From Rhabditophanes sp. KR3021 (lineage: Eukaryota; Nematoda; Chromadorea; Rhabditida; Alloionematidae), in contig CAUJLY010000002.1 of NCBI GenBank assembly GCA_963281155.1, forward strand, positions 3,100,001-3,164,000: DNA of 64,000 bases, given 5' to 3'. Below are positions 5,339 through 63,900 of the stretch, piece after piece; positions within the stretch are counted from its first letter, which is position 1, and each line of letters begins with the position of its first letter. The translations under genes were made by a program, and so were the position numbers. The notes beneath the pieces are model-generated. The model did not search any database. It saw only the letters and a program-made list of their open reading frames with translations, and was not told the origin of the DNA.

Positions 5339-8300
5339 CTACCAAAATGGACACCATCCTACATAACATTGGCATAAGTTATCCTCCAATGTGGCTTCTT
5401 TAATAAGGCATTCTACTTGTTGTTCTACATCTAAAGACTTTTTAGGATTGAAATCACGGCCCGATAATTTTTGTCTGATGCGCTCAATCTCTGCCATTCC
5501 ATTCTTCTCCGAGCCACTTCTTTCTCCAGTCATACTTTTGTCCGTTTTTGTGGCTGATTGGAGTTTGTTACAGATCACAGGATCATACACAAAGGCTTCC
5601 AAAATAGCGAGTAATCTGTCGTCGTTATTACGGCACAACTTCAGAACTCTTTCACAAGTTAGTCTGTAATTCCCTTCAATTCCAGTTACTTCCATGGCCT
5701 TTACCATGATTCTAGTTAAACGGAAGGGGATCTTTTCAGGGAACTTCTCTCTCATCGTGGCTACCTCAAAACAATCCCCAAAATCAATATGTACAATTTT
5801 GCCACTAAGGCGATCTAACATCAGATTTGAGGGATGGCGATCTCCAAGGCCTAAAATATATCCTACCATTGACATAACAGCCATACTTCTGGTATAGTTC
5901 GTTCTTCTATCAAACCAAACTTCGGAGTTGGGACTCTTTAGCCAAAGTGTGTGTTTCAAGTCTTCTCCTGGAGTTTCATTCAAAGCATGTTTGAAAGCTT
6001 CCACCTTAAACATAAGATTGCATTTATCAAGATCGATGACATATTTCTGCATCTCGGCATGCTCTTTAGATATGTCGATCTTATTTTTCTCCCGATAATC
6101 TTTAATAAGTGAATGCAAGGTATCACAATTAGAAAGCCAGCCAATTAATCCGCATGTCTCGTTCAAGGCAATGATTGAGTAACGTTGAATAGTTAAATTT
6201 TTCCGACAAGTTGTCCTATCTTTTGTCAACAATGTGTTAATCAGACCAAACAATTGCATTACTCTTTCATCTTGACGCGGATCTTCGTGTCCTTTAAGCA
6301 GGAAACAATATTCGTTGCCGTCACTTCCAGTCATCATCAGCCTTCTTGGTCTTTGTTTCGATGAAATAACGCTCAATGTTCTCTTTACATCCTTAATCAT
6401 AATTGGACTGCTGTTCTTAGAGTAAGGATTGTATGTTCCAGGGATTACAATGTTGTAGACTCTTTTGTCAATTAATCTTGGAGCACAATATTTGTTGTCA
6501 ATTTGTTGCATACTTCTAAGATGCTGGGTAATCTTCTTGAAAGTATTGTAATACAACTCCCAGCATGCTTGAATATTCTTCGAGGCTTGATTCTGTTTGT
6601 AAGCAAGGCAATTTAGCCAAGCATCATCTAAGTCTTGTTTATAATTTTGTACAAAAGACTTTTCTTTAAGCGTTAGAATTGAGTATTCCTTACTGATCTT
6701 GGCATGCAATGGTTCTAATGTATCAAACATTCCTTCGAAGTTGTTTTCCTGGAACCATCTCCTCGAAGCTTCTTCTAAGCCTTCGTGCCACTCCTGCTCA
6801 CATGAAAAATAAGGTTTTAGATCATCATTTTATTTTTTTATTAATTTTCTACTTAGTCCAATGCTAATTATTTATATATCATAATATTTAGTATCAAATT
6901 TAAAAAGACAGCCTATCAACAGCTCTTTAACGCATCGTACTTTGAAATTTTAATGTTAGCTCAAGCTATTTACGTAAATACTAACATCAAATTTAACGTA
7001 ATTAATCACTCTTATTAATTTTAGTGCCAACATCGCCTCAATTGGCCTTTATTTAGTCTAATATGGAAGAAGAGAAGCCTACAAAAATCAAGGGGACTTT
7101 TTCAAAAGTGTCACAAGAAGAATTAGATAGCTTGTCTCAAGGAATCAAGAGTAATAGGTTAACGGCAGGCAAACCGAAAAGAAGTTGTGATGATGGCAGA
7201 AGTAAGAATTATGCTGTTGTTGGTAAGTCTAAATTTATAGTATTATAGCTAATTCACTTTAGGAAATGATGCTGATAGTGACTGTCAGATTATCAAACTT
7301 ATCGAAGGTACTAAGAAAAGAGGACCAGTCAAAAGATTAATGTCGAGAATGGGTATAAGAACATCTGCTTTCACTGCTGTTGGATTGGTAGGAGAATATC
7401 TCACTCATGTACTTTACGAAACCGGTACAAAGGACCAAATTGACGTGCCAAAAAAGTTGATCTAAGTTACGGATACTGGAGAGGAAACATTTGTTAAAGA
7501 AATCAAGAATGAACTCGATCAACTCAAAGCCAACAAGGGACACCAAGAATGCTGTGCTTACTTATTTTGGATTCTACTGTTCTCGCTGATGGATGATGAA
7601 CAAGACACCATAAAATATGCTGGTGAATCAAAAAAGGTGCCGAAAAGGATCAAAGGTCACAGAGATAGCCTCAATATTTCTCTCGAATTAGGCTTTGTCT
7701 TTGACAAGAAGGAGAGATTCCCCAACAAACTTGTCAGTGCAGGAAGTTGGTTGCTATCAAAAAGGAGTACCCATCCAAAAAGATCGCTTGAACATCGAAG
7801 CAATTCTCATAAGCGCAGCCCGTGGTCAGCTCACCAACAGCCAAGGTGGGAAGCCATCTTTAGATTTGGTCCTGAACACGAACCCCCAAGTAAACTCATA
7901 AGTTGCCCAACTTATTCTGAAGGACTTCTCAGAATGCGGATATGAAGAGCGCATTATGAAGTATTATATGTTTTTGTGTTTTAACTGAATTTTTAAGAAT
8001 AAACTTTGTATGCCAATTACCTCTGCCCACAGAATTGCGAGTCTAGTTAACTCTTCATTAACTAATTGGGCATCTTCAATAATCAAGCAAATTTCTGGCG
8101 ACCCCTTTAAGTTTTTTATAATTGTTTCGGCATTTCTTTGACGATGGCTATTAGATGATTTACTAGCTGCAACTAGTTGATAAACAATGGCAAATGGATG
8201 CTCTCGTCCAATATTTAGGACAATATTTATTAAAGTTCTTGTCAAAATATTGCTGTTTTCTCCATCTAATCTCGAAATAAGTTGGGGAATAACTTCGCAC

Positions 8301-11300
8301 CAAATGCTTGTTGGAATTTGTAGCAACTTTTCTTCGATTTCTTTGAATACTTTAAAGATTTCATCCTCTGATTCAGAAAGTAATGTTAGTAATCTCATTA
8401 AATCTTGCAAGCAGGATCCATCACAAATTGTTATGGCTTTGCAGTACGTGATAACGGCCTCTTTGTAGTAGCGCAGTTCTTCTTTAGGAGATGTGTAGCG
8501 ATGGTGATTCATTTGATATACCATTTGCTGATTAATAGGCAGCATTGGAGAAATATTTCCAATTTGATTGTTTCCCATCATCTGCCCCATCGCTTGCTGC
8601 TGTCCAATCATTTGCTGCTGACCCATCATTTGCTGATGCCCCATCATTTGCTGCTGGCCCATCATTTGCTGTTGCCCATTTATCTGGTGTTGGCCCATCA
8701 TTTGTTGCTGACCCATCATTTGTTGTTGGCCCATCATTTGATGCTGTTGCCCCATCATCTGTTGTTGATTAAGTGGTGGGATATTCACAACCATTTGTTG
8801 ATTTAAAGGTGCCATATTTTCGTGTGGATTAAACTGCTGAAGAGGGGAAGTAATTCTTTGTTGAGCAGTGGTATGCAAGTTGTTTAAGACACTCATGTTT
8901 GGCAAAGGAGGAATATTGTTTAAATGAACATTATTTGTAACTCCATTCGCCGAAGTATTCATTTGAGGACTAGTTTGTTGCTGTGGCTGTCTATCACCTT
9001 TGTTGTACTGATACCCATCGGGCATTGCTTGTCCTGCTGGAGATCTCATAAAAGCGGGATTGGCGTAGTTAGGCGATGTTTGTAAGGCTGGAGCATTCTG
9101 GTATACTGGATGATTTTGCAGACCACTGCGGGGATGATTTGGAGACATAGGAGATCCTATAGAAACTTGAGCATTCTTGCGCATGTTGTCTTTGTATTCT
9201 TGGACTTTTCTCATTCCAAGAGTATAGTAGCATTCTGCAAGTTTGTGGACAGCCTTATACCACTTGTCATTGTAATCTCTCGCCTTTTCATACAAAATGG
9301 TGACATTAATCAAGTCTGCATTAGGAATTGAAGTATTGTGGTGTCGTCTACGATGGTCTCTATGTTCGAAGTCGGTTTCCAGTATATTCAAGGTGGGGAC
9401 ATCTCTGCTAAAACTTCCACTTGGAGTGTGGTGCTTTCTGTCAAGGTGGAAACTACTGGCAGACGTCCAGTCGGCTAATTTGAGGTAAGCTTTAGATAGG
9501 GTTGTGTTCAATATTTCCTTATCCTTGATTGTTTCATCCATTCTTTGCTTCTCCATTAGACTGCACAAGTCTTTGAGTGTCTTGATAGAATGGACGATAA
9601 ACTGATTTGACTTAAATTCATCTCCTTCGGCCAATCCAATTGTTAAACCTTCACTACGCCAATGTTTACACAGGGCAAGAACCAAGGCATTATCATGGAA
9701 TGGTATCTTGAACTTGCCAAGATCTGTATCCAATTTATTGCCACTAAGCTCGTATAGAATTTGCTTGGAAGTGTCTTTATTGCCCTCGCTTCTACATAAT
9801 GATGCATATTTCAACATCATGGGAGATAATTCTTCGTTATTTAAAACCAATGATCTAACCATGAGTAACTTTTGCCAATGATCAATAGACGCTTTACACC
9901 CTTGAAGTCTTCTACTCCATACTACTGCGATTTGATCTCTGCGGTCTGGTATTCTTGCGTATTCCATAGCTTCCTCTAATTCAACCAATTGCTGGACTTG
10001 TACCATTGTTCCGTAAGCCCTTTCGTAACTTTCAGCAGCCATAATGGTCAGTTGAGTGTCTAGCATATCTCTAGTCTTTTCAATAAGTGACTCAGCTTTG
10101 GCAAAATCGTCTTTCTTAAAGGCAACGACCGCTCTCATGAAAGATCCCTCAGATGAGTTTTCATTGATCAAATTTACATAGCCTTCAAGTTTATCACTAT
10201 TCAAGACCCATAGATTACGAGCAGCGATACTAGCAACTTTGTCGTAAAGAGCATTATTTTGTCCTTCAACAAAATCTTTGACTGGAAACATGTCTTCCCT
10301 AATGACATCCAATTCTCTCCATTGCGACAAAGCTTCGTGACATCTCATTTGTCTCATGGCAATTTCTTTTTTCTTGCTTATATCACTTTCGCATACAATT
10401 TCAACTTGATAACATTCAAGTGCTTCTCTCCATTTGAACAACTTTTCTTGCCACTTCCCACAAATAGATTTTCCACGTTTTTCGGCATGAATAGTCATTC
10501 CATGAGCCAGTTCTTCTACATTTAATTTGCTGGCGTAAGATATCATCATGTCATACAAATCAATCTTCCATTCCTTATTCTTTTCCAGGTAATCTTTTTT
10601 AATCTCAAGCTCCTTGTACCTCAAAGCCTTAGCATACGCTTTTACTTCATTGGCTGTGTCACGGAGCAATTTTCTGTCAAAGGGTAAATTAACTTCTTTG
10701 CAATGATCAATAAACTCTCTCAAGTTAAGAATGGTCAAGATTACTTCTGGGACACGACACTTTTGCAAAATTGTAACCAGTGTGGCTAAAAATTCATCTT
10801 GCTGATTTTGAGTTAAATCACTCCAGACAGCAACAAAAGCGCCATTAAACAACTCCTTAGCCAATGTATGGTTGCAAAAGGAGATGGTGTGACATGCTCT
10901 AAATGCAGGAGATGGCGAATATTTCATAAACTGAAGTCTGAACGCTTCTAACCATGTTAACCATTCTTCTTTGGTTTGATTAATTTCAATTTCATGGAAT
11001 TTAAATAGAGACTTAAAATCCTTGGACCTATTTTTCGCTTCTATAATCGCGTTTTCCTTTTGATTCGAGGCAGCTTTGGCATGGTCTGGGATATATCTTG
11101 GTCTAGCCGAACTTGATGTCGCCTTTTCTTTGGCGATTGCCTTTTTAATCGTTTCGGCACGACTTCTATCATATCCGTCTGATGTCCTTTGAATCTTTTT
11201 TAATAACGAATCATAATCTTCCAACACATCAGGATCAACCTTTACACGTTCCAATGACGATTTTACAGCTTTATCAAAACATTTAAAATTTGTCCACATA

Positions 11301-14300
11301 TCCTCTGCCATCAAAAACAGCAGTTTACAGAATTGTTCTTTGAGTAAATCATTTGGAGTAAGACTTTTGGGGTTTACATATTCCTTCTTCACAAATGCCG
11401 AATCATTGAAATTTCTAAGCCATGCTTGCATTACCATAGTTGAGCATTCCTTTAGAACTTTCTTTTCCGCCAAAAGCACTAATGTCTTCAGAGCTTCAAT
11501 CCTGACATCGATAATATGAGGGCATAATTTCGGTGAAGAGACGATAGCCCCATCAAATATTGTCAAAATATTTGGAAGCAAAAGATGAATAGTCGAGGGT
11601 AGAGACTCGGCCACATTTTGTATACAATTTAATGCCTTCAAAGTTAAAGTACGATATTTGGAATGATCTATCTGAAGTATTTCAGTTAAGAATGGGCATA
11701 AATCATTTACATACTCTGAAAGTTAAAGTCTATTAGTATATGTATTTTATTATGTTTATAATACCACCCATTTTATATAAACGAACTGAAAAAGGCTGCT
11801 CGAAAACGCACAATCACTTTTGGAATAATGCTAGCAAGTTTTCAACTAAACATTTTTCTGCATCGAGTAGAGTTAGCAAAAGTGGCCTAGCCTATATTCT
11901 TGATTTGGAGAACAAGCCAGACATTGGCCACACAAATATTTTGCTTGATTCAAAGGAGGAGGCAATGAAGAAGGTTTTTGGTGGTGGAAAAGAAATGGTT
12001 GTGCTAAAAAAGACTTATGCCTCAATGAAAACGGCACAAAAATGGAGAATATTTTAATTGACTACACTAGAGATGCATGCACTAATTCTCAATCTAGGAA
12101 GCCTTCTTATGACATTGTCTCTTAATTGCTTTCAGAAAGAAAAGGCCAAGTTGCCTAGTTAATCTTCCAAGACATTTCAGATGGTAATGAAGATGTTTTA
12201 TGAAAAATAACCACCAAAGAGAAACTGAAAATTCAAAGATCCATATCTTTATCCCATTTTTAATTTAATAAACTGTACTTACTTGTAAATTGCTTTTCTA
12301 ATGCGACACCAAATTTGGCCAATGTCTCCACAATTATACATTTAAGACCATGATTTTCATCTTTCGAATCATCAAGTTTCCAAAAATTAGTTAATAATGA
12401 GAATAATTCTTTTGAGTATGGTGCAATAAGAGCTCCCGTCTCCAAGATGATGTTGCCAAGAGTTTCTACGTAACTTTTTCTATCTTTAAGTGTTTCACAT
12501 TCTCTGGTGGCTTTTATCACATTTGGGATGACTTTAGGAACAAATTGTTCCAAGGTAACATTTGATGAATTGTTGATAAAATTGAATATGACATGTATGG
12601 CGTCGATTGCTTCTGCTCTAAATAAGCCTTGAGATTCATCAGCTAAATGATGCAAAGCGGATGCTAATGCTACAGAGGGATAAAATTCGTCTAATGTGCA
12701 TTTTTCATAGTTAACCCATGTGATGATGTAATGCTGTTCATCTCCTTTCGGAATAGGCTGAGTAATGTTGATAGTTTTGGTCTCAGAGGCCAAAACTTCT
12801 CCTAGAAAGACTTTGTAGGTGTATGGATCGAGAGCTCCCAATGTTCCAATAGTCTTCAAAATTTGATGGCGAATAGAGCTGGAGGCTTCTGTCTTAAGCA
12901 ATTTCAACAACGTCCCCATTAATTTTGGATAATCCTTATATGGATCAACAACATAACCTGTACTTTGAGAATATTGGCAGATCGTATTCATTGCAGCTTT
13001 TTTCTTGTTCAAAGCATAAGACTCGCTTAAAAACTTGACCAAATTGGGGAAGATTGTTTGCAAATTCTTGACTACATCAATTCCTCCAATTAAAGACAAT
13101 GTTCCTAAAGTGTCAAGAATTGCAACCATGAAGTTTCCATCTTGGGCCTTGCTTTCAATTTTCTTAGTCAGCAGCTTTAAGACATAATCAAGGTAAGGTT
13201 TCATGAAAGCCTGAGCTTTTTCGCCAATTTTCCCGATAATTATGGCGCACGCAACGTCAGTCTTGCTGTCAGTGCTAGTATCAAGCAGAGTCAGTGTATC
13301 CATGAGAACAGTTCTTAATCTAGGATAAACCATTCCTGGATTAACTCTTGATAGTTGGGAGAACAAAGATACCGAGACTTGTCTGATTTCGTAGTCTTGA
13401 TCATTCAAGGTCATAATTAGGATTTCAATCATTTCCGGGTGAGCTAAGTGAAATAAAAAGGCCTCCTTAACGTAGCAAAAACAATTTAACACACTCATCC
13501 TAACTCTGATATCTGGGTCCGAAACTGCAGTCGTCAACAATGACTTCAACATCTTCTTGATCATTCTAAGAACCTCGATTTTGTGGTTTTTGTCTGTCGT
13601 TTCATAAACATCAACAAAGGGATTAAGCAACTTGGCACAGCATTTAACGGCAACTAATTGAATTTCGGTGGAATTACAAGTCAAATAACCTTCCGCAATA
13701 AAGTGTATGAAAAATTGCAATGAATGTCTTTCGAAATCAAATGAACCTAATGTCTCTAAAGCGAGAATCGTTTTTTTATTATCCGTAATTTTAAGTGGCA
13801 ATTCTGGATCAGGCGGACCTAAAAATTAAACGTTAAAATGTAATAAAAATGCTTGATAAATATGTGCTCATGCTCATAAAAGGTAGGAGTTTTTTGTTAC
13901 ACTTACTTTCTGGTGCAGCTAGTTTATCCGGAAGATCCCTAAATAACAGTACAGTAGATAACATTCCTAACAATCTATCGTGAACGTCAAGCTTTAGAGA
14001 AGGAATGTGTGTAACTACTTCCTGCAAGACTTCCCTTAGTCCATCACACAAGCCTTGTTTATACAGAAATGGCAGTAAGGCTTTGACTTGAGTTGAAGAA
14101 TCTTCCTTGACAGCTCTAATAATTAAGGATAAACTTTTGTACATGATTGGCATAATGGTAGTTCCTTTTTGATCTTCGGTGATAATCTTTTCAGCAATAA
14201 TCTTCAAGGCTTCGAAAACTTTGGTAGATACAATCCTTTGCTCTATTCTTTGAATGTCTGTAACGTACAAAGCCTGTGAAAGAACAATAAAGCTCATAGC

Positions 14301-15775: not shown

Positions 15776-16080
<305 letters not shown>

Positions 16081-16342: not shown

Positions 16343-19300
16343 CTATAATTTGTCAACAATACTGACTCCGTCCATTTCCTTTGGAATTGTTAAATTCATG
16401 ATGTCAAGGACAGTTGGTGCTACATCACGAAGGGCCATAAGACGATCTGGTAAACTCTTTTTGAAAACAAACTTGTCAGAAGAACAAGTAAAAGGAACAG
16501 GGTTGCAAGTATGAGCGGTAAATTTACCTCCGCTTGGGGTTATCATTTGCTCCGCATTTCCGTGATCAGCAGTTACCATCAAAATGTAATTATGGGCATT
16601 GCAAGCTTCCAACACGCGTCCAATAGCAACGTCAGTAGCTTCACATGCTCTAATACATGGTTCGTATTCTCCAGTATGTCCGACCATATCTGGATTGGCA
16701 AAAATTATTAATTTATATACTTGAATTTAAATTTTGACATTAACTAAAATCTATTTGGTTACATAACAGTAATCCCCATATTAATGCAATCATTTCCATA
16801 ATAGTTATCATTATCTTATCATTGTTTATGTACAATTTCATTATTAGTGTAAATATTCCCACGCAACACTGTCGACTTTTAGTCTTTTTCTCCTAATAAA
16901 ATCAGTCCTTCTTTTATCCACAGATATTTTGTCGCTCATGAGATTCATTTACCTTTTTTGGACATAATTCACCTAGTTGGGTTTCATCATACAGAACGTC
17001 TCTCAAGCCAACACCAAATCATTCTTCTACCCATTAATACATCAACTAGCCTATACTTTGGCTATTTGGAAAATCAAAAAAGCAATACCTACTCATAATC
17101 ACGTTTCCGAGCTCATGAAGAATTTTGAAAAAGTGTCAACAGCAAATCGTGTAGGTGGAAATCTACAAATGTAATTATTGTGGACCAAGTTTTGCTACTA
17201 AGTGGTACTCCGACAAAGCCATCTGTAATGGGCTCCAAGGTGAGCGTGCTCAATTTATAAAAAAGACCAATAATATGAGTTTGGAGAAGTTCCCTTTGAA
17301 GAAGACAGATATTACTACGGAAAGTGTATTGGATGTTATTTAGCCAGAAAGACATAATCCATTAGCTTTCAATAAAGCCTATCTATACTTCTTTTTGGAC
17401 CTAAGAGCTGCTGGAAAAGTTTTGACTGAAGACAATGGTATATTCGATAGGAAAGAAATGAGAATGCCGAAATCATCAAGGCTGGATTTGAAATGATTGT
17501 CGTTATGCTGCCTGTCAGTTCTAAAGAAATAGCCGCGAACCTCGAGTTCATTCTCATGGAACGTTACAAGTGGCGAATGACGAACTGTGATCATCGACAA
17601 GTGTTCCATGAAACAAACCTGCCTCCTCAACTCAATCAACGCCTGTACAATTGTTGATACCAAATTTTAAATTATTGTCTTTTTATAGTTTCTTAATTGA
17701 CTATTTTTGGTAAACTTTTTTAATTTCGTTCCATAAATTACCTAAAATAAGAAAAATTAGTTGAGGTCATTAGAGAGATTGAACACCTGGATTCGCGAAG
17801 TTACACATCACAAATGGATGTTCTCCGAGTTCAATTTGTTTGATAAGCTCGTCAGCAACTCCAGCAGAAGACATTTCGGGAAGTAAATCGTAAGTAGCGA
17901 CTTTTGGTGATGGTACTAATCCTCTATGTTCATTCTCGAAAATAGCTTCTTTTCCTCCATTGAAAAAAAAAGGTTACATGGGCGTACTTTTCAGTTTCAG
18001 CACAATGGAATTGAGAGACTCCCTGAGAAGAAAGTGTTTCTGCCAAGACATTGACATGCGATACTGGTGGAAAAAGTGACTTGAATGGGAACTGGGCTTT
18101 GTATTGGGTCATTCCAACTACAGCCAAATTAGTTGGATGGGGGACTTCAGTCTTCATTTCTGCATCTTTGGTCATTCCAATAGCCTCGACAATTTCTCTC
18201 ATTCTATCGGCACGGTAATTGAAAAAGATTGCAGTATCATCACTTCTAATTCTAGCGTCTTCACCGAAAACAATTGGTTCCAAAAATTCATCAGTTTGTC
18301 CTTTGTCGTATCGTTGTTGTACAATCTCTTGGGCTTTGTCAGCTGTTGCAACTTCGCCTTTTCCAGCAAGCAAGGCTTCATATGCAACACGGATTCTCTC
18401 CCAGCGAGTATCTGATTTATGAGATTATTAATAACGTTAAGAATATGTTTTAATTTTGTGTTTTTAAATTTATTGTAAAAGACGCTTTGTATAGATTTTG
18501 GCAAGTATGATAATATGATTTCAAACTTTGTTTATAACATAGCTTTAATATCATTTGCCATTTCATTATTCCTTTGGCGAGACTAATGGATGCTATTAAG
18601 ATCTATATTGCTCACTATATTAATTTTAATATTTTAGATTAACTAGCATCTAATCACACACGGTTTTTTACTAAAATGGGTTTAAAAATAGGACAAGCGT
18701 TGATGTCAAGAGACCCTAGTGATGTGTCGCTTCGAAGCAGAAGGCACTCAGCTTGATCGAACACCCACAATACTTGGACAGATGGAGAATGTCACACACT
18801 CTCACCTGTAAGTGCTCAACTGATAGGCAAGCTTACCCTGACAAGTTCTTCGTTGTTAAAGAAGTAACTCCTGTTGGCTTTTAATTATATTTTTTAATTT
18901 TAAATAAACTGTATTTTTTGTGTCTATTTTTTAATTTTTCACCTCTATCCATAGCATAATATCTTCCAACAATGGTGGCCAATTCTCCATAGCTTTCAGC
19001 CGCCATAAAATCCTGAAGCTGCTTCAAGAAAGTAATTCCACTATGTGGGAGTGTGTCTCTACCATCTCCAAAGAAATGAACATAAGTATGTGGGACTCCC
19101 AATGCCTTAGCTGCCTTGAGCATTGAAAACAAGTGATTAATATGAGAATGTACACCTCCATCACTAATCAACCCAAGTAAATGAAGCCTTCCATTTCCGG
19201 CCTTAACTCTATTGACGGCATCGAGGAAGTTTTCGTTTTGTGGAAAAGCGTTTTTGTCGACAGTCATGTTAATTCTGACAATATCTTGGTAGATGACACG

Positions 19301-23666: not shown

Positions 23667-26589
<2,923 letters not shown>

Positions 26590-29147: not shown

Positions 29148-29187
29148 CTTACTCAATCCAATAACTCCTTACTCATTCCAATAAATC
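29148..29187. repeat. 20 bp tandem duplication in pyrimidine-rich tract
   Basis: Two adjacent 20 bp units (cttactcaatccaataactc, then the same with 2 changes). They end a 150 bp tract (from about 29040) of degenerate ttaattatt/ctaattc motifs. Confidence 0.75.
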
Positions 29188-34418: not shown

Positions 34419-36150
34419 ATGTCATTCGTGTCATTAGTGTCTAAAAACATCTCTAATTTTTCTAAACAGATTAGGATGGCTCATTTAAGAAAAAATCTAA
34501 TTGCTGTCGCACAATTAACATCAACACATGATTTAGATGAAAACTTCAAAACATGTGTTCAAATGGTTGAACGTGCTAAAGACAAAAGGTGTGCGATGAT
34601 TTTCTTCCCAGAATGTTTTGATTTTGTTGGAAAAGATGCTCAACAAACAATTGACTTGTCCATGGATTTGAATTGTCATTATCTCCAAAAATTCAAGACT
34701 CTTGCCAGTGATAACAAAATGTATATGTCGCTCGGCGGATTTCATCAACTCGATCCACTGAGAAAAGAAAAACCGTTTAACAACCACTTGATTATCTCTG
34801 ACAAGGGAGAAATTGTTGGTCAATACCACAAACTACATTTGTTTGACCTCGACATTCCCGGAAAAGTAAAACTAATGGAGAGTCATTTCAACAGTGCCGG
34901 CAAGAAACTTGTCGATCCCATTGATACGCCAGTCGGTAAAATAGGACTGAATATTTGCTACGATGTAAGGTTCCCAGAACTCGGCATTCTGCATAGAAAA
35001 AATGTAAGTTATACAATTGTTGGCAACTAATTATACCTAAACTTTTGTAGGGTGCCCAAATATTAGCATATCCATCAGCGTTTACTGTCGAGACTGGAAT
35101 GGCACATTGGGAAACATTAATGCGTGCTCGTGCCATCGAAAACCAATGTTACGTAATTTCTTCAGGTTAGTATAATACTATAATTAAAAACATCAAATTC
35201 ACCTTAATTAAGTCCTAATTAAAAAATTAGGACGGATAAAAAAATTACCACCATCTATTGTTAGACTTTTAAATGCGTATTTTCTTACGTTCAAAGTAAT
35301 TAGAGTAATTACATTTAAAGATGTGTAATAAATCAGAATCAGCAATTAAAGTAAATTGATCATATGACATATTTAATTTACTTTAGGACAAGTCGGAAAC
35401 CACAATCCAAAGAGATCTTCGTATGGACATTCTCTTGTAGTAGGTATGTTTCCAATTTAAATATTTGTATTCTTATTACAAGAGTTTAGATCCTTGGGGA
35501 ACAATTATTAGTCAGAACTCTAATAATGTCGGCCTTTGTTTTGCGGAAATTGATTTGGACTATCTGGACGAAATAAGATTAAGACAGCCCGTATTTTGTC
35601 ACAGACGTAATGACCTTTACATGATCCATTCCAATGTTTGTGGAGACATTGAGAGCCAAGAGACATATGACTTTGGCTCAATTAAAATACCCAGTGATCA
35701 TCTTTTTTACAAATCTAAACATTCATTCGCTCTTGTCAACCAAAAGCCGATCCTTCCTGGCCGTAATGTTGTGTCAAAAGTGAACATTTAATTAACCGGT
35801 TGTTGTTTATTATAGATGTGCTAATCTGCCCACTTAGGCAAGTAAAGAAGCTTATAGAATTGACGGATGAGGAGACTGCAGATTTGTTTATTGTTGCTAA
35901 GAAAGTGCAAGCTAAGATGGAGGAGAAGTATGGTGCCACGTCTTCAACCGTTTCATGCCAAGATGGAGTTGACGCAGGTCAGTCTGTTTTGCATGTACAC
36001 ATACATATAATTCCACGAACTAAGGGGGATTTGGGACCTGATCCGGATGCGATTTATAACGAAATTATGAAACATGACAAGGATGGCAGAACTGTTAGAA
36101 CCCATCAACAAATGACAAAAGAAGCAATGGAATTTAGAAACCTATTCTAA
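34419..36150 (+). CDS. NitFhit: NitFhit fusion protein: nitrilase plus Fhit hydrolase
   Basis: Exons 34419-35003, 35051-35165, 35387-35443, 35490-35762 and 35816-36150; 454 residues, all junctions in frame. The N-terminal part is a nitrilase-superfamily domain with the Glu-Lys-Cys triad (FFPECFDF, YHKLHLFD, NICYDVRFPE) and RARAIENQCYVISSG. The C-terminal part is Fhit: HVLICPLRQVKKLIELTDEE, then the His triad in LHVHIHIIPR. In vertebrates Nit1 and Fhit are separate; the fusion is known from flies and nematodes. Fhit hydrolyses diadenosine polyphosphates; Nit1 is a deaminated-glutathione amidase. The first 18 residues could be a weak mitochondrial presequence, with a second Met at residue 20, just before the domain. 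Confidence 0.97.
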
Positions 36151-37144: not shown

Positions 37145-37737
<593 letters not shown>

Positions 37738-40717: not shown

Positions 40718-43700
40718 TTAGTGGTATCCTTGTTGTTGGTAGTTTGGATACATAGGTGACTGCTGCGTTGGTGGAAACATATTTTGAGGATTAGGAAATT
40801 GGGGCTGATTTGAAAATGGTCCACCCTGTAAATGAGAAGGCATTTGCATAGGATGTTGAGGTGGATGCTGGTGTGATGGATGTTGAGGTCCGAAGTGGTT
40901 ATATTGAGAAGAAATATGTTGGGGACCACCGTAAAGCTGGGGATTTACCATCCCTTGACTCGCAATCTGAGGAGGAGTATTTATAAACGGATTGTTGTAG
41001 GGATGATCTGGCAAAAATTGAACTTCTCTTTGTTCCATCATCCCCATTTGACTCCGCAGAAACTCATCTCTTGAACCCAATCTGCCAAGCGGTCTACTAT
41101 GAGTGATTCATTGTATTTGTGTGCATTGCCCTTTCATGATCTTGTTTGATGGCAAGTTCGTGTTTCTCCCGCTCCATCGGATTACTCATCTCATAATGTC
41201 TTTTCGCAGCTTCTTGTTCTTTATAACTTTTATCCACATCAAAATTGGAAGGAGATGGTTTTGGCGATTGAAGCATCATTGTCATATTTGAAGACGGGCC
41301 ACTCATATTTCCCATATTCATAAGCGGCCCAGTACTGAGTGTGTTCATGGCACTCATTGCATTGATTGGATTTATTATTTGACTACTTGTATTTCCAAAG
41401 TTGTGCATTGGCATCTGGTTATTGAAACTAATGTTTCTGCTTGGTTGTTGATATTCGGGAACTTCCTCAGGTTTCGTCTGATACAAGGGCTGTTGTTGCA
41501 AGTACTGTTGATCTTGTGCAGAGACAACATTTAATAAATTTTTTGTCTTGCCATGGAGATTTGATTGAACAACACCCTTATGAATAAACTTGGCTTTTTC
41601 CTGCAAACTTCCATGAGTCTTTGCAAGACATTGTTCTGCTAGATCTCTTACCGAATCTCCAACGTATGCATACTTGAGATTGTATAATACATCAATTAAT
41701 GCATCCTCTTTCTTTAAAGGCTTCCTGTTTTTATCTCCAATTTTTGCTGTCAATTCATAAATGAGAATAGTTAAAGTCAAATATTCCAATTGCTTCTTAA
41801 CACGGTCTTTGATATCACTAATCTTAGCCATGACAATGACGATAATTCTAATGGCAAAAAATAATTGACACTCATTGTTAACGGCATCCAGCATTCTGCT
41901 TTTGAACATATCAGGGATAGATGTTAAGAGTGATGCTGGTGCATGTTGCAAAACAGAATGGGCAATTGCAAGGTGGGCAATTATTTTAGGCGTGCTATAA
42001 TGGTACACTTCAGTATTTAAGTTGGTAAATACCAGTTCAACATCAGCATCATCTTTTAAGAATTCTAAATCAAAGAAACCTATAACTAATTCTAAGAATT
42101 CGTCATAATACGGTTTTGGAAGAGCTGATATTAATAAACCAACTGCATTTAGATGTTCATATGGAATTTTTGATGTGCTATGTAAGCCCAATTCGATGAA
42201 ACATTTGATAATTTCAACTGGTTCGATTTCCGTAGTCATGATTTCAATTACGCAAGCATGTAATGTTTGTCCAGCTGGCGGTCTAGAACGAAGCAATTAA
42301 TGAAATGTACTTATTTTTGATTTTAAATATTTTTATCCCCTCGATAGTTAAATTTTTATGTTTATTAGAAAATAAATTTGAATTAAATGTCACAAGAAGA
42401 TATTAATTGGAAGACGTTTTTTACTTGACGTTTAGATTAACTTGGTCATTCGTAAATATATAAATATCCCTTAATCCGATAAATAAAATATGAAGCATCA
42501 AAATGAAGGAGCGACCCAATAAGACAAAAAAAGTTGTTGCTGACGGTAAGTTACGGAAATTCAAGAGTATGGAGTAGATATAATGATGAAGAAACATCCA
42601 CCAATCGTTAAGAGAATATCAAGCATTGCTCAGTAAGATGCATCAAATTTGAACTACTATCGAGTAATACTATGTCTAATTTTAATAGTTTTGCCCTCTT
42701 TTAAATGAACATTTGATATGGATTATCCTTTTAGACTGTTTTAAAAATTACCTGAAATGAAAATAAAATTAGTTAAGAGCATTAGGGAAAAAACATACAA
42801 TTCACTTAATCTCCAATCTTTAGTAACATATTTTGGTGGTTCATGTTTGTAAGTGCAGGATTCAACAAGTTTCTTTAGTAAATCAGTACAAAATTCCATA
42901 GGTTCAATTTCCTTTCCAGGAGAAGTTAAGAATCTTTCTGAAAATAAACTTTTTTCATCCAAATGAGACAGGATCTTTCTAACTATAAGTTGGATTGATG
43001 GTCTATTAATTTTGAACATATGGTCAAGTGTGAAAATGGTCCGATACAAGAAATTCAATGGTAATCCATGGTAAATATAAATTGGTGCAAATATAACTAG
43101 TAATTCTTCAATGACTTTGATTCCACAATTTGTCTGCAATGCCCTAGTCAGAAGCATATCAACAAGTGGCAAAATCTTGTCTGCTAAAGTACCATAATAA
43201 ATAGGATAATGTTGATTCTGCAACAATGTGGGATCCTCATTTTGTGATTTCGCATACAATTCAGGATATGTGTTTTCTGGAAATTTCTTGTAATAATCAG
43301 TCATTGTTTTGAAGAATGTCTCCGAATCTGCTGAAGGAATACTTTGTTTTGAGGGCGAAAACGCCAAAATATAATTTAGACGTTGCTTCAAATCTTCGTG
43401 TTTTGTTACTAATTGATGAATAATTAAAATAGAAGTTTCAATGCTTTTGTCGTCATTAGCATGCATTACTAAGGATATAAATAATCTATCAAAATGGAAT
43501 ACTTGATAATGAAAAACCATATCATTTAAAATTTTGATGCATTTATCTTGTTCATCAGGGGTGTATATGCCAAAACTCCATTTATAGATCAAATAATCTA
43601 CGAAGAGGTTAACTGAGTTAATAATCTCCTTAATATTGATGTTTTCCAATACTTTATAGAAGGTTGGATTCATTTGCTTTTGAGAATTGCCAAATAATGC

Positions 43701-50625: not shown

Positions 50626-53600
50626 ATGTCCTTGAAAGCTGTAATATTAGTTGGGGGTGCGCAAAAAGGTATGTTCTTTATTGCAAAAATCCACATTTAT
50701 TCTATAAATTTTGTTTGAAATATTTTGTCTAAAATTATCTATTTAATTGAAAACTTTATCTTGATTATCGAAAACTCACTTCTCTAAATTAAAGAGACTG
50801 TTTATCTTTTATCAAAAGAAAGTGTCAAAAGTACTTACTTAACATCTGATTTATTTGAGTAAATCATTAATCCCAAAAAATCAAAGTGAACATGGCTATA
50901 CTTGCAGGAGCAGCGATTTTCTCACTATACTCTTTCTTTTTGCTACTTCCTGTATTTATATTTGCATTCGTCATTTCGAATTGCCCTTTGAGATTGTAAA
51001 ATTAATCTGTTTTGAGAAATACCACCCTTGGATAAATAAAAGATTCTTTTTAAATGACTTACTCTTTTGAATAAATTGGTGTCAAAGCATAGATGAAACA
51101 AAGATTGACTTGTTTAATAAGTAAATAATTTGTTTTTAGGTACACGATTCCGTCCTTTGTCTGAATACCCCAAAGCATTATTCCATATCGCCGGCGTACC
51201 TTTAATTGAACAACACATTGATCAACTGTCCAAAGTAAAGAATTTGGAAGAGATTGTTTTGCTCGGATTTTTTAAGGCGGATGAATTTAATGATTTTCGT
51301 GTTGCAGCTGAGGATAAATATAAAATCAGAATTAAATATTATCAGGAGCAAGAGTCATTGGGGACATGTGGAGGTCTTTTGAGTTTCAAGAACCAGTTGC
51401 TTGAAAACAATCCGGAAGCTATATTTGTTTTAAATGCAGACATTTGCGGAGACTTACCAGTCCAAGAAATGGTTGAAGAATTAAACAAAAAAAGAGACAA
51501 AGAGTGTTTAATCTTGACTACTGAAGCTACGCGTGAACAATCAACTAATTATGGATGTGCAGTGTTCAATGCAAACGATGACATCGTGCATTACGTCGAA
51601 AAACCAATAACATTTATTAGTTGCAGAATTTCGTGTGGCTTATATCTTTTCCGCCCGACAATTTTCAATTTGATAAATGAAATTCAGAAAAATTCGCTTA
51701 CAAAGCAATTGTGGCTTGAGACGGATGTTTTCCCCGAACTTGCCTCAAACAAGTTATTGTGTGGACTGCACAACACAACGCGTTGGTGGAGTCAAATAAA
51801 AACAGGAGGCTCAGTTCTTTACGGAAATAGAAATTTTCTAAAAATGTATTTAAAAACACACCCCGAAAAATTAGCTACTACTAAGAAACATGGGTGCACA
51901 ATTATTGGGGATGTTTATATAGATTCTTCAGCTCAAGTCCATCCAACCGCGAAAATCGGGCCCAATGTTTCAATGTAAGTTTATTCAAAAATTATTAGAT
52001 TCAAAAGGTTTAATTAAGGACATTATTTAAATACTAGCTATTTTTTGCATACTTCGCCAAAAAACTTTTTACATCTTTTGCCACCCTTTAAGTTGTCATA
52101 AGCTTCTGAAATTTCTTGAACGATTTCATCAATGCAATTATATTCACTGTAAGCAATTCTTACAAGTAGCAATCCTTTTCGGCGGCAGTATTCATTTTTA
52201 ATTTGGTCATTAGCTTGTTGCTCCATAAACTTTTCTTTGCTCATTCCAAAATTAGTATCGTCAAAATGTTAAGCCCGTCAACTTCGACAAGGAGGCTTGG
52301 AGGAACGAACATGTCAAAGGGCAACTTATTCCTTTTCCCTCTACAGTCATCAAATGTGTGTTCAGGATCAACTCTTTGTCCATATTTAGCTAAAAGAAGT
52401 CCCATTGTCTTGTTATGAAGAACTGAAACTTCAATACAGCAATGACAGCGAGAGCCCCGGTTTACTATGTTACTTACTAGCTGGGAATAGTGTCTTTCGC
52501 ATTTTGTGCATTTAATGCAACCTTTGAGTGTGATTGACGAGCGATGTTTTCATAATCTTGAATTGAAACTACATCTCCATTCATCAGGTTTGCATATTCT
52601 TCGGGAGCATGTGTCTTCAGCTACAAGGACATGTTTTGGTTCTTTCACAATATGAACAGCCCGTAACCCGACTTTTCATGCTAAAATGTTTCGTCCGGTC
52701 ATGGATTTCTGAATCGAATACGTGTCCTTCAGAGCATTGGCAAGTGGGTGTATATTTTTAATTGTAAATAAGCATTATATAATTAGAATATGAAAAGGAT
52801 ATGTGCAAAGTTTGGTAAATATATGCTGATTATACAATAAATATTTCTACGATTACTACAATTCGATTACGAAAAATCATAATAATAAGCACCAAACTAT
52901 TAAATAGAAGCATTCTAGAGGCACATAAAAATATTAGATGGTTCATTAAGAAATAGAACTCATCATTTAATGGTAACTCACCTTGATTTTCCTCGAAAAG
53001 AACAATGAAATTGTTTCAAGATTTTATTAGCTACCCCTTATTATGCGTCAAACTAATAATTAAACCGTTCTTTTAATTAAAACTTTATTCCATCTAAAAA
53101 AGTAATCGAATTTAATTTAAAAACGAAAGTAAAAAAATTAACATTCATTGAGTTGATGTGTATGAATAAATAACTTGATTTGATATTTCAGCGGAGCAGG
53201 GGTTGTTGTTTCAGCCGGAGTTCGCATCAGAGAAGCAATTGTCTTGGCTGAATCCGTAATTGAAGAACATGCATGTGTCCTTCATTCAATTATTGGGTGG
53301 AAAAGTAAGATTGGAGCATATGCTCGAATTGAAGGTCTGGTTTTCCTTTCCATGTTGATATTAATTAATTTTTATTTTAGGTAGGCAAAGATACAAGAAA
53401 GGAGATTTTATTAATTAAAAGTATAAAAAGGAGCTAATACTTTAGAACATATTCTCAGCGATCTTTTTGGAGAAATAAGTCTTTTTGACGACAGTCAATG
53501 GTTTTCCTTCATTAACAAACTTGTGAGAAATTCTTTCTTTCCTGTCAAAGGCATATCCCCATTTAGTTGGAAAGTTGTAGTGATATCTATGCAAGGACAT

Positions 53601-54824
53601 TCTTCGATTCATGTTGAATGCTTGTCCGACATAAAAAGAGTCCATCCACTCCATTAGCAAAGTCCATTCAGAACCAATAGGCAATGAGTCAATTGCCAAG
53701 TACGCATCACACGGCATGTCTCCTTAAACTGCAGCCAATTCATCTAATTGTCTCTTAATAGCAACGCGTCATTTAAGAGTTGTTCAGTCATTCCATTTCC
53801 CAAAGTTCTGATCCAACCGGCATGGAAAATATTCAAGGAATAATTATAAGTGACTCTACGTTCGAGGTTTGTAGTCTTGATTAGCATTTCTCCCAGATCA
53901 AAGACATTTCTTTGGAGGAATCATCCAAGAATTTTACCCCAACCTTTCTGTTTTTTTAAATTCCTTTAACATAAACAACTTCAGTTTTGCCGACAAATGC
54001 CACGCTTTAGTGAAGCGGCCTCATCTTCATGTTCGACCGATCTTCCGACGATGTCATCCGTTTGTCCAAAGTACTGAGCATAGTCTTTCATAAAACAATC
54101 AAGGAAAACTTCTTTTAAAAGATCACCAGCTTTCTTTTTAGCTTCGAAGTCTTCTTTTACTGTTCTTTCCAAAATGTCATAAAGAATCTTGAATTTTCCT
54201 TCTTCAGTGGCATTTTTGATAAGGTCCTCTATCATTTCCCTAAACGCGAATGTGTGTTCTTCTTTACTCCAAGACAACTAAGCTTTTCTTGAGGAGATGT
54301 TGCTGAAAACATTCGTGTATAATGATCGGTGCTTTTCAGCAATTGTGATAGGCTTTCTACATCTGCGTCAGAAATTTTTGCGACTTTCTCTTCATTTCAT
54401 CTTTCTTTTTAGTTCCTTCCATATTTAGAATAAATAAGCACCTGGTTGAGGCGATGTTGTTGCACTAAAATAATAAAAATGGTTCATATACGTTACATTC
54501 GGTCTTGATATAGACATGTAAATAGCGTACAGTTTATTCAATTTTAAAAATGTAAAGGAATATATTGTTAACCTAAATACCAAATAACTTATAATATGTC
54601 TACTTATTTCAATTTTTTCAGGAATTCCAACTGAGCCCAATCCAAATATTCCATTCGCGAAGTTAGATAATACCAATTTGTTCAACAATGACGGTAGATT
54701 GAATCCTTCCCTCACAATATTCGGATCCGGAGTTACTGTTGATCGTGAAACCTTGATTTACAATTGTGTTGTATTGCCTTTCAAAGAATTAAATGTCAGT
54801 TCAAAGAATCAAATTATTTTGTAA
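50626..54824 (+). CDS. GMPPA: Mannose-1-phosphate guanylyltransferase alpha (GMPPA)
   Basis: Exons 50626-50668, 51140-51974, 53192-53334 and 54622-54824; 407 residues (human 420), all junctions in frame. The nucleotidyltransferase domain starts MSLKAVILVGGAQKGTRFRP, with PKALFHIAG, LGTCGGLLSFK, FVLNADICGD and VEKPITFISC. A left-handed beta-helix follows (GDVYIDSSAQVHPTAKIGPN, IGAGVVVSAGVRI). The end (PTEPNPNIPFAKLD, LTIFGSGVTVD, VVLPFKELNVSSKNQIIL) is that of the alpha subunit rather than catalytic GMPPB. The glycine-loop reads GGAQKGTRF, as in GMPPA. GMPPA binds GDP-mannose and regulates GMPPB, which makes GDP-mannose for glycosylation and GPI anchors. Introns 2 and 3 (1.2-1.3 kb) each contain an antisense nuclease relic; intron 1 (471 bp) shows none. 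Confidence 0.96.
52038..52755 (-). pseudogene. Decayed treble-clef zinc finger plus VSR-like endonuclease ORF, antisense in GMPPA intron 2
   Basis: From the 5' end (about 52750, minus strand): a zinc-finger-like CQCSEGHVFDSEIHDRTKHF ... GCSYC; a stop near 52632; a second Cys cluster (GCIKCTKCERHYSQL ... CHCC). Then FDDCRGKRNKLPFDMFVPPS, LLVEVDG, a frame change near 52270, and QQANDQIKNEYCRRKGLLLV, RIAYSEYNCI to a stop at 52038. CxxGHxF...GCxYC is the treble-clef finger, and D...E-x-DG plus NDxIKNEYC...LLVRIAY is the VSR-like endonuclease core. I know this pairing mainly from large DNA viruses, phages and other selfish DNA. The stop and frameshift make it inactive. It lies entirely in the GMPPA intron, opposite to GMPPA. 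Confidence 0.7.
53442..54422 (-). pseudogene. Decayed LEM-3-type GIY-YIG nuclease ORF (copy A), antisense in GMPPA intron 3
   Basis: ATG at 54422 (MEGTKKKDEM), frameshift, then KISDADVESLSQLLKS, matching copy C. Another frame (54277-53981) encodes a charged helical segment (TFAFREMIEDLIKNATEEGK; DFEAKKKAGDLLKEVFLDCF). After more stops comes the nuclease part (53717-53442): YLAIDSLPIGSEW, FYVGQAFNMNRRMSLHRYHY, WGYAFDRKERISHKF, KPLTVVKKTYFSKKIAE. FYVGQ...NRRM..H is the best preserved GIY-YIG catalytic block in the window, with Tyr, Gly, Arg and His. The E...LTN end is missing beyond 53442. Several frame breaks; inactive as it stands. Confidence 0.7.
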
Positions 54825-55159
54825 ACTTAATTTCAATTCCAAGAATTAAATCATCATGTGGGCTGAGATCCAATTTAAATACTTACAGCATTTTGTAAAG
54901 TTATTTTTTTATTGTAAAATTGTAGTAAATAATATTATACATATAAACACATATCATAAAATAGTTTAATATAAATCAATGTCTTTTGCAGTCAATTAAA
55001 TACATGTATGTCCAAACTCATCAAACCTACACATAGCATCACCATCATTACCATTACATCATGGCATTGTTATACATGCTAAGTTTTTTATATCCACTTA
55101 GTCATCGTTTATTCTTGGATTAAAATTTCACGCCATTTGCCTTTTATCAACTGCTTAAG
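54825..55159. promoter_or_regulatory. Spacer between GMPPA and the type II receptor
   Basis: 335 bp, AT-rich, between tandem plus-strand genes. Presumably holds the receptor promoter and the GMPPA 3' end; no specific site identified. Confidence 0.35.
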
Positions 55160-60437: not shown

Positions 60438-60945
60438 CCTGGCAAATGTTAAGTCAAAAACAAGTTAGTCCTGAAACACACAAATATAGTAAGAGGTATA
60501 AAGATGAGATTGTGTAAAAATTGGTATAGTACACAAATTGAGATGGCACATATATTGAGATGGTACACAACTTGAGATGGTACAAAAAATGAGATGGTGC
60601 AAAAATGAGATGGTGCAAAAAATGAAATCGTTGCATCACGCTAGTTGGGAAGAAATATGATGAGTTTAAATGTAATGGTAAAGATTTTAAAGCCAAGCTG
60701 TCATAATTCCAATTTCATCAAATCTCATTAGGACATGTAGTATTGTGTATATCATGTAAAATTTAAGTTTTATTTTAAACACGAATTAAATAGTCATTAA
60801 AGTGATAGTAAAAGAATATAAAAAGGTCATAGCCGGTTGCAATAAACACGTAAATTTTTTAAATATTTTTGTAGAATTGGAATGTGTTGCATTACAAAAT
60901 CCAATTGTTGTAGTGAGATTGTTTACATACTGCCAAAAGCTTATT
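60438..60945. other. Innexin 5' spacer
   Basis: 508 bp between the innexin start and the 3' end of the POGK-like gene, both on the minus strand. It contains the 17 bp minisatellite (60538-60630) and otherwise AT-rich sequence; the innexin promoter should lie here. Confidence 0.45.
60538..60630. repeat. 17 bp minisatellite upstream of innexin
   Basis: Units start at 60538, 60555, 60572, 60589 and 60605, with a partial one at 60622. The core is (t/a)tgagatggtncanaa; one unit is 16 bp. Diverging copies continue weakly to the left (60500-60537). Confidence 0.9.
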
Positions 60946-63900
60946 TTAAAGTGATTTTTTAATTAAATGCTGAACCGAGTTTTTTTTGCATAAATAAGGA
61001 TACTTTTCGTAGAAGGCATGAATGGGTAGTTTTGTAAATTTATTGTTCAAAATCTGATCCACAGATCCATCCTCATTCCACTTCATTTCTTCTACTTTGA
61101 TAGGTGGTTCTATTTCTTCACTTTCAAAACTTTCCGTATCGCTAGTATCACCAACTGCACTACCTTCAGTAAGTCCACCGTAATCTTTATTCAGATTTAC
61201 TCCATATCTTTTTTTGAAATTGCTAAGCCATCTTTCGGAAAATTGACACATTCCTGCCAATTGCTCCTGTGAGCATTGTTCTTTTGCTAATTTACGAGCT
61301 GTTTCTCTGATCCATTTGTTGCTTACTTTCCTACCAGTTTCTACCTACAGATGAAGTAAATGTAATAATTGCAATAGATAAACTATTCAAAACAGATAAA
61401 ATAATGGTAGTGACAGATAAATTAATTAGTTTCGAATCATTGTAAAAGTGATTGTAAAAGTAATTATCATACTTGTTAATGATTATTAATTAACTTACTT
61501 GTGTAGTATACAAAGTAAAGATCTGTCTTTCAATATCTAAAAATTAAAGATTATTATAAGTGGTACTTTCGGTTTTTTTGTTATTATTTTATAATGCAAT
61601 TAATTTTTACTTCAACAAGTGTTCTTTTTGCTAGGGTGACCGTTAAAAATAATAACTAGATCATTTTTAGTTACACGTTTATTTTTTGATAGAATGAACA
61701 TTCAAAATTAAGCCAGTGCCAACCTACCTGGAAATTGCGGCTTTCTCCCACTTCTCCCGCTTTTTAAAGAACCTGAAATTACCATAAAGTAAGTTATAAT
61801 ACCAAATCATGTTGTTTATTAATATTTGAAAGAACTATATTTGGTGGCAATGTTTAAAGTATTGTGAACTTTAAATTATATTTTAGCAATTAATTACCTG
61901 GGCGAGACTCCTTGATTTTGTCAATTTTAGACAACCATCCGTTGAGCATACTTTTAGTTATTTGAAATAGTTTACATGTCCTGTATTTATAAATAGTTAT
62001 TATTTTGTTTGTACAAATCTAAATTTTAAGGAAACCACATATATAAGGTTTCTTTATAGAAAGCATTTTTTAAATTTTCAATATTAGTTACTTCCAAATT
62101 TGTTGTCCTTATTAATGCATTTATATTGTTATTTGACTTCTAACGTCTACTAATTGTTGTCTCTTTGTCTTAGTTGTTCACTCACTTAAACTACAATTAA
62201 ACTATCGAAAAAAACGATGTAGAAAGTGATGTAAAGTCTCAAGTGAAATAAGGAGGAAATGGCTGTGACTTTTGGCATGAGACATCTGTCTTATGAAGCA
62301 ACTGACAAGTAAACACCGATTGTTAAGAAAAAGCTGCTATCTGTAGAACTATTTCATGATTTCTCCAACGCATTGACCAGAGATGATACTTTCAAGCGGG
62401 AATTGTAAGAATACTTCTGCTGATTAGAAACACCGTTGACCGATCTAAAATGCCGGAGGGAGATGATCAGGAATTAGCTAAATTTGAAATTAGGCTGGAG
62501 CTTAATAAGATAGAGGAGTTGCCGACTAGAGCTGATATTAGGAGAATCAAGCCTGAGTTTGATGAAATGTGTGAAAAGAAGCAAATTGGGTTCTGGATGA
62601 ATCGGGTTCTTCTGCATGAAAAAACAAAGAACCTTAGCGTTGATCAGCTATTGAATTTGCTGATTGATCAAACTGCTGATGAAAAAGAGAACATAGACTT
62701 TTACATAATCAAGATTATTGGTGGGGATATCCAGGTGTAAGAAGCTACAATGCAAGTAATGAATTTATCCGGTGTATGAGACACAGAAGCGATATAGTTT
62801 ATAAACTTCGCAGTCATAACCTCTTGACAGAGAAAGAATAGGAAATTTCGAAAACATGAGATTAATGTTTATTTGAAGGCCAAAAGGAAATCGTCGAAAT
62901 TAGATCCTTCAAGTTGAATGGAGAAATATGGTATCCTTCTAAAGGCTCGTATGCACCAAAAGAATATACATAGCCACTTTTGGTAATGTTTCATATTTGG
63001 AAATAGGAAGCATCTCTTCAGACTTTGTCAACAATCTCAAGCCACGGAAAGTAGAAAATACTGGCCAACATTTGAAAGTGTTATATGAATGCGAAGAGGT
63101 CGGTTACAGAATGAAAAGATCTGATGATCTTAAATATCAGATACCAAAGGTCTACTACAAAAAATGCCACCTCAAACTATGCAATGTCCAAGGAGGGAAT
63201 TTTCTGTATGAGCGAATCAGGAAAGGATGACAGGATTGTCCTACACTTTTGAACAATCATTTCTTAAGAACAGTGATTTATTTGATAAAAAATAGTCAAG
63301 AATAGACAAGATCAGAACCCATCTAACCGAAACTCTCCACCTCAGACTTCTAGCGTCTACTAAAGAATTGGCTGAGTTTTATTCTAATTAAAAGACTCAA
63401 AAACAAGATGACTAGATGTGGTCATGGTAAATGGCCGCGCCAGACGTGTACCTGCTGAATCACGTCAATTGGTGCACTATTCCTAATATTTTGGTTAAAT
63501 GATCTTTGATTTTAAGATGACTTATGACGATTAATCAAGTATATTCTTGATTCCCTCGTTTAACTAGCTTTATTTTCCGAACCTGTATTTATTTTGGCCA
63601 TTTTCATAAAAATACTCAATAACCATCAGCTTAAATTCACGTGGATAGCTCATTCTATTTGAAGTCGTGCTAGAAATTGTACTTGAGTTTCCAGAACGTG
63701 TCATATTGCTCAGTGAAAGAGACTCTTTTTTATCGCCACTCTCCAATTTGATTTTGATAAGTTGACCATCGGAAGGATTGGAGCATGTTGGTAAAAATGT
63801 ACTCTCCTTGTCAGTATCAATTTTGAGTAATGGGTTCTGCCTTATGACAGACAGATCACTTGGCAAACTGTTGTTTCCAGTTCTAGATAGATCCAAAGGG

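Follow-up and report, generated by a model that had tools for sequence, protein, structure and literature searches.

Long introns in protein-coding genes of the nematode Rhabditophanes sp. KR3021 are probably mobile spliceosomal introns (introners) that carry homing nucleases. The stretch analyzed, called here the window, comprises the 64,000 nucleotides 3100001-3164000 of contig C2 (CAUJLY010000002.1) in a genome of 44.8 Mb and six contigs, and it was compared with loci of the same genome outside the window, which bear L-numbers. Directly observed were the membership of the nuclease sequences in families, their position between host exons, their single orientation and an intron homology that does not enter both exons, as well as more direct repeats at the junctions than expected, poly(A) signals on the antisense strand and a divergence biased by codon position. 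A further step, to which we give slightly less than an even chance, is that these are autonomous introners, in which homing nucleases encoded by the elements themselves, of the GIY-YIG, the VSR-like and a third family, would drive insertion into exons and thereby supply an animal genome with new introns, the nuclease gene being locked in antisense since the other strand serves as intron.

Nuclease relics in the long introns of the window

Gene models were assembled by hand from the output of an exon finder, for whose training long frames of both the window and the fetched loci were used, and all splice sites, in the window and in the loci, are predicted ones. In the window models 29 of 40 introns measure 39-221 bp and ten are long (469, 471, 531, 567, 623, 1097, 1217, 1227, 1287 and 1602 bp), which reproduces the ten introns of 470-1600 bp among mostly short ones given in a preliminary description of the window; an eleventh, of 620 bp, sits in an uncertain gene. 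That description had placed protein-like relics, all opposite to the host strand, in eight and possibly nine of the ten. Four profiles (GIY1, GIY2, VSR and R10) were built from loci outside the window only and run on its six-frame translations; matches in the fetched loci hold by construction, these being the training set, and the window is the sole independent test. The profiles matched six introns, namely TOR 5, TOR 6, iPGM 2, Groucho 4, GMPPA 3 and POGK-like 1, with best expectation values (E) per intron from 6e-26 to 3e-9, and nothing at E <0.05 elsewhere in the 64 kb. The 20.5 kb of intergenic DNA, where an equal density of such frames would have spoken against the preliminary description, gave no match, and the reversed window used as control gave a single weak stretch (E 0.007).

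A seventh relic, in GMPPA intron 2, was missed by the VSR profile, which has four training sequences; its matches are to phage families that carry HNH and homing endonuclease annotations (phrog_559, E 8.6e-8; phrog_9084, 1.5e-5), and it retrieves locus L059 by tblastn (E 1.5e-4). Seven of the ten long introns hence hold a homology-supported relic, and all seven relics are opposite to the host strand, in plus- and minus-strand hosts, as first described. Introns make up 37% of the non-exon DNA of the window, or 26% when the elements are excluded, and by share of bases the probability that seven of seven relics fall in introns is 1e-3 or 8e-5, respectively. The relics proposed in iPGM intron 1 (18412..18942, 531 bp, host strand -) and GMPPA intron 1 (50669..51139, 471 bp, +), and the possible one in the long intron 3 of MED23 (42283..42751, 469 bp, -), are unconfirmed, none of the four profiles matching there. 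These three introns are what could be quoted in favour of regarding the relic frames as chance open frames or misread exons, a reading to which we assign almost no probability: profiles trained outside match the window inside six introns only, Pfam and PHROGs matches accompany them, and for seven of the ten introns the profile and PHROGs matches refute it. As the preliminary description had supposed, the relics are akin to one another rather than unrelated chance frames.

Two of the element introns interrupt the TOR gene (host strand -), both with flanking host exons in one predicted gene. Intron 5 (6794..8020, 1227 bp) contains a GIY-YIG relic at 7063..7945 (+), matched by GIY2 at 7493-7937 (best E 3.3e-14) and itself predicted to be interrupted by a 40-bp GT-AG intron at 7223-7262; the FRB, PI3/PI4 kinase and FATC domains are encoded in the exon downstream of it. 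Intron 6 (11716..12282, 567 bp) contains a GIY-YIG relic at 11752..12207 (+; GIY2 12024-12191, E 2.8e-18), and it aligns with the L045 element intron from the first base of both onward. Groucho intron 4 (23711..24333, 623 bp, -), whose host has a TLE_N domain, retains part of a first GIY-YIG domain at 23796..24160 (+; GIY1 23816-24049, E 5.6e-11). GMPPA (host strand +) again has two element introns between exons of one predicted gene: intron 2 (51975..53191, 1217 bp), with an NTP_transferase domain in a host exon, contains the VSR-like homing endonuclease relic at 52053..52620 (-), and intron 3 (53335..54621, 1287 bp) a broken GIY-YIG relic with both domains at 53430..54420 (-; GIY2 53448-53768, E 4.3e-15; GIY1 53771-54106, 3e-6). 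Relics of the third family (R10) occupy iPGM intron 2 (16690..17786, 1097 bp, -), at 17143..17657 (+; R10 17475-17609, E 3e-9; GIY2 8e-6), and POGK-like intron 1 (61981..63582, 1602 bp, -), at 62393..63511 (+; R10 62393-62617, E 5.9e-26, and 63287-63511, 5e-5); each of these introns is flanked on either side by exons of the strand opposite to the relic, which belong to two separate predictions.

The protein domains found in the window include Innexin, Groucho TLE_N, Med23, TOR FRB/kinase/FATC and nucleotidyl-transferase, a set indicative of an animal. The large TOR exon contains a long insert of Met/Gln-rich repeats (QQQMMGQ units, 8500-8800), and the POGK-like host has a Tc5-type transposase DNA-binding domain of its own (60946-61344, E 2e-9). 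At 34419-36150 a carbon-nitrogen hydrolase domain is followed by an exon resembling a HIT domain, an arrangement that we take to be that of the NitFhit fusion proteins.

Orientation, extent and coding content of the copies

Genome-wide counts are counts of matches, of which one element may give several, and are lower bounds: at least 55 for the GIY-YIG first-domain query, at least 153 for the second-domain query (of 702 first-look candidates 150 were scored, and 150 matches are listed), at least 58 for the VSR-like family and at least 25 for the third family, window included. Stops occur within many of the listed GIY-YIG and VSR-like matches. The loci read comprise four small ones, 20 of 8.3 kb and 38 of about 3 kb, many of the last group overlapping those of 8.3 kb; the resulting element table draws on 36 sources (the window and 35 loci), covers part of the listed matches and holds 54 elements, 52 defined by profile and two by hand (R8, L004).

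Strong exons of the opposite strand lie on both sides of 40 of the 54 elements, in 31 cases inside one predicted gene, and nine more have a single visible flank, also on the opposite strand (one flank is visible at L035, L037 and L044). Four are mixed and one, in L062, has no strong exon near, with an MBOAT frame on one side. None was sense, under a rule that skips same-strand exons up to 700 bp from the element and so leans against that call. The mixed elements are those of L047, L055 and Groucho 4, where one host exon is short or weak (in Groucho the last host exon, only 23 bp, decided the automatic call), and L004, where a same-strand frame intervenes. Seven elements not used for fetching are two-sided and opposite as well (three in L041, one each in L043, L051 and L052, and a VSR-like one in L053), and five further such elements have one visible flank, opposite. 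At least two elements stand at different introns of one host gene in TOR, GMPPA, L041, L052 and L053. A Pfam match of the host spans the exon-exon junction across the element intron in seven of ten hosts tried, namely L052 and L042 (both WD40-type), L050 (Sec3), L048 (FAD_binding_1), L036 (FerB, by few residues), L058 (Inositol_P) and L004 (SMP), and the joined exons of L043, L053 and L002 gave no Pfam match over the junction. The host at L061 is an SDF2-like gene with a MIR domain and that at L060 a kinase gene, presumably STK11.

Some candidates were set aside. The best GIY-YIG match, L001, was left out, its 220-residue frame being taken for SLX1, and supposed host exons in L044 and L053 that lie within elements were dropped or redrawn. 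Among the 150 listed second-domain matches the density is 6.4/Mb on contig C3, 5.3/Mb on C4 and 0.9/Mb on C6, the largest (11.2 Mb), which may be a sex chromosome or gene-poor. In L062 an element of the third family has a histone-like stretch (953-1237, +; Pfam Histone, E 4e-13), which by eye we take to be H3-like, just upstream of the conserved part of the family; it may be a piece of host sequence acquired by the element or a module that serves in targeting. In L059 AGAATT-type simple repeats (about 1720-2100, -) occupy an intron of an ATP synthase beta-like gene.

The orientation can also be read from the introns themselves, independently of the nuclease frame and of the 700-bp lean, the introns being picked with the same exon finder. 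For this purpose 37 introns, iPGM 1 and GMPPA 1 included, were cut at their predicted splice sites and aligned all against all in host orientation. The results showed 159 matches in 105 pairs on the same strand, involving 28 of the 37 introns, and no match on the opposite strand; together with the absence of sense elements, this supports the proposal of the preliminary description that nuclease-bearing mobile elements sit in a fixed antisense orientation. No intron-intron match among the 37 extends into both exons; the start is close to both donors in seven matches (at most 17 nt away), and the end is close to both acceptors in six (at most 24 nt). The element introns of L047 and L055, whose hosts are in our judgement LST2-like and TM9SF-like, are 77% identical across 1.15 kb from the donor on. 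Ten sources contain no Rfam family at gathering scores, that is, no group I or II intron model matched. Six of 29 element introns open with a stretch of 43-47 nt that ends in TTTTAG followed by GTR and resembles a recursive splice site (17742-17786, host strand -, and 53335-53380 in the window; L043, L047, L055 and L004).

The nuclease gene itself is intact in one copy, at L041, where an open frame of 443 residues runs from the first methionine used. It has a GIY-YIG match above the Pfam cut-off at residues 82-126, a second GIY-YIG-type match just below it at 307-392, and weak C2H2 matches, and is read as two zinc-finger-like modules and two GIY-YIG-like domains; residues that we take for the fold positions Y, YIG/YVG, R, E and N are visible in both domains. 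Four relatives are 36-48% identical to this protein, which matches group I intron endonucleases weakly, below cut-off. The GIY-YIG and VSR-like types named in the preliminary description were thus recovered, the latter in L059 with matches to phrog_559 (8e-21), the homing endonuclease family phrog_9084 (7.8e-18) and the intron encoded nuclease family phrog_7140 (3.1e-12). Its label of LEM-3-like was not: LEM-3/ANKLE1 proteins combine a LEM domain, ankyrin repeats and GIY-YIG, and a Pfam scan of the intact L041 frame found neither LEM nor ankyrin, nor a reverse transcriptase. A single GIY-YIG sequence retrieved nothing from the protein database at E 1; the GIY-YIG alignment A2 retrieved three short predicted proteins, all from Rhabditophanes sp. 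KR3021 and up to 72% identical to fetched copies, and the VSR-like alignment four short proteins, one with Pfam PF04480. Searches gave no confirmed relative of the VSR-like family among viral contigs, nothing in the PDB below E 0.04, and no SL1 leader, in the form familiar to us, with up to two mismatches allowed.

Mismatches among copies distribute over the three codon positions as 0.45/0.38/0.58 (427 pairs, 33 elements), a pattern which suggests that the protein was under selection during the spread of the family. At the other end of the gene, TTTATT, the antisense of AATAAA, is found within the first 100 nt of 25 of the 37 introns (shuffled mean 5.8, maximum 11), and AATAAA itself in three of the 37; in many cases, therefore, the end of the antisense gene lies a short way inside the host donor. 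Classical homing nucleases move into the matching site of an allele that lacks the intron, whereas the copies described here occupy many genes and different introns, some genes having two or more, so that ectopic insertion is needed, and one may propose that another enzyme moved the introns, the nuclease being a passenger or active in allelic homing only. We regard this as unlikely, while giving it more weight than any other alternative. Different nuclease families share the niche and the polarity, the GIY-YIG protein diverged under codon-level constraint, and the intact L041 copy shows no transposase or reverse transcriptase, the remaining genes of the genome lying outside the search for a mobilising enzyme.

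Direct repeats at the junctions and a model of insertion

When the exon end was compared with the intron end at positions -10 to -3, the element introns gave 3.22 matches against 2.35 in permutations (z 4.7, p 5e-5), and the same anchored test in 92 short introns of the same sources gave 2.20 against 2.12 (z 0.67). A first anchored run on 29 introns had yielded no value as high in 5000 permutations, and a gapped variant yielded z 5.25 in the element introns. In the POGK-like gene the exon end before intron 1 reads ATAAATACAG (63583..63592, -), and the second copy of ATAAATACAG forms the end of the intron (61981..61990, -) and includes the acceptor AG. In iPGM intron 2 the exon end ..AATCCAG recurs at the intron end, and comparable repeats are GATTTRG in L045, CATCGYAG in L047 and one with a single indel in L030; L004 has AAATCTTCC near both junctions at a different offset. 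A target duplication with its distal copy at the acceptor would explain the repeat of the exon end. The preliminary description had left it open whether the elements insert into introns or create them; as a pattern in sequence, direct repeats anchored at the junctions favour creation, and a negative search for unanchored repeats stands on the other side.

Taking these features together, we propose the following model for the mobile introns. Each copy, read along the host strand, has a predicted donor at its start and a predicted acceptor near its end, and its opposite strand is a nuclease gene. The nuclease would cut exonic DNA, and repair would copy the element in, duplicating about 8 bp of target, of which the distal copy would supply or border the new acceptor AG. 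Insertion into exons would in this way yield new introns. Since the splice signals of the element have one polarity, only insertions with the nuclease in antisense would be spliced out and remain harmless; other orientations would break the host gene and be lost. The copies would later decay, leaving relics. We infer nuclease-driven insertion from the kinship with homing endonucleases and from the constraint on the protein; how repair proceeds, where the acceptor comes from and that selection acts on orientation are likewise inferred.

Genes nested in antisense, like intronic elements with an antisense bias, are common, and the introns could accordingly be older than their content: ordinary selfish nuclease genes would have entered pre-existing introns, and exonic or sense copies would have been purged by selection. 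The six introns of 29 that begin with what appears to be a complete short intron of 43-47 nt, and the negative unanchored repeat search, agree with such a history. Nevertheless, we consider it improbable. Known antisense biases are only partial, whereas none of the 54 elements is sense and the intergenic DNA of the window has no profile match; the 43-47 nt stretch is common in sequence to L047 and L055 and therefore belongs to the element there; and insertion inside an old intron predicts neither that exon ends are repeated at intron ends nor that the matches reaching the ends stop near the splice sites.

Several observations weigh against mobile introns driven by their own nucleases. No near-identical copies exist among those read, the longest alignment being 77% identical, so that recent mobility is without support, and no terminal inverted repeats were found (p 0.14). 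The repeat signal appears only when anchored at predicted splice sites and most introns lack a clear repeat; repeats sought without anchoring up to 45 bp from the junctions show no excess (7.69 against 7.57, p 0.29), which makes the signal short and tied to the junction, and the gapped variant is weakly positive in short introns too (z 1.75, p 0.048). The closest pair of copies is nearly flat by codon position (0.19/0.15/0.21), and TTTATT exceeds internal windows also in the last 100 nt (13 of 37 introns). The L059 element, two-sided by the automatic rule, lies on reading 3' of a gene that we take to be ATP synthase beta, and not in a proven coding intron. Finally, GIY-YIG enzymes leave short overhangs.

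Relation to known systems

The statement of the preliminary description that no such system had been described does not hold for viruses. The 'shintrons' of mirusviruses (Nat Microbiol, November 2025; PMC12768974, consulted in part, as were the other papers cited here) are spliceosomal GT-AG introns with GIY-YIG or VSR-like homing nucleases and no group I/II signature. According to the consulted parts of PMC12768974, homing-type nucleases in spliceosomal introns were previously unseen and have no apparent equivalents in eukaryotic genomes, and homing into intronless alleles is a proposal only. The introns studied here share with the shintrons that they are predicted spliceosomal introns encoding nucleases of the same classes, negative for group I/II in Rfam. 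However, shintrons reside in viral genomes, mostly in virion genes, with target-gene specificity (PMC12768974), whereas the worm elements reside in an animal genome in many unrelated cellular genes, and a target-gene specificity of the shintron type is not seen. In every decided worm case the nuclease is antisense, and junction repeats are found, whereas the orientation of the shintron nuclease is unstated in the consulted parts of PMC12768974. A related viral system is therefore known, and the occurrence in many cellular genes of an animal is the unexpected place. The statement stood in so far as no animal case appeared among the matches listed, which comprised titles and abstract beginnings from a search that left most subscription papers and preprints outside; in a survey of nematode intron gain, a word search found neither Rhabditophanes nor endonuclease.

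Introners show target duplications in 49 of 130 families, from which splice sites are sometimes recruited (PMC9860276, PNAS 2022). The likeness lies in introns spreading as mobile elements, the source there being non-autonomous transposons (PMC9860276), whereas the worm copies have their own nuclease gene and no terminal inverted repeats, a trait of part of the introner families. As in introners, the worm introns are alike inside and not past the splice sites, with moderate identities and only 7 and 6 matches reaching the ends, and a target-site duplication shows as a statistical signal, present only with anchoring at predicted splice sites. Nuclear group I introns of ribosomal DNA offer another parallel, in that their homing endonuclease gene is antisense to the host and possesses both a poly(A) signal of its own and a small spliceosomal intron (PMC9548176); that system is a self-splicing group I intron in ribosomal DNA with a His-Cys nuclease, whereas the worm case concerns spliceosomal introns of protein genes. 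The ten sources compared with Rfam gave no match to a group I catalytic RNA core at gathering scores. Among animal mobile elements, Penelope-like elements combine a GIY-YIG endonuclease with a reverse transcriptase, and the intact copy at L041 shares with them only the former.

Spliceosomal intron gain and the cause of introner mobility are open questions, and both would become testable in an animal genome that has many such introns, at least one of them with an intact frame. A simple reason is also offered for the total strand bias, namely that one segment is read along one strand as a gene and along the other as an intron. If the reading as autonomous introners is true, homing elements and spliceosomal intron gain would be united in one mechanism.

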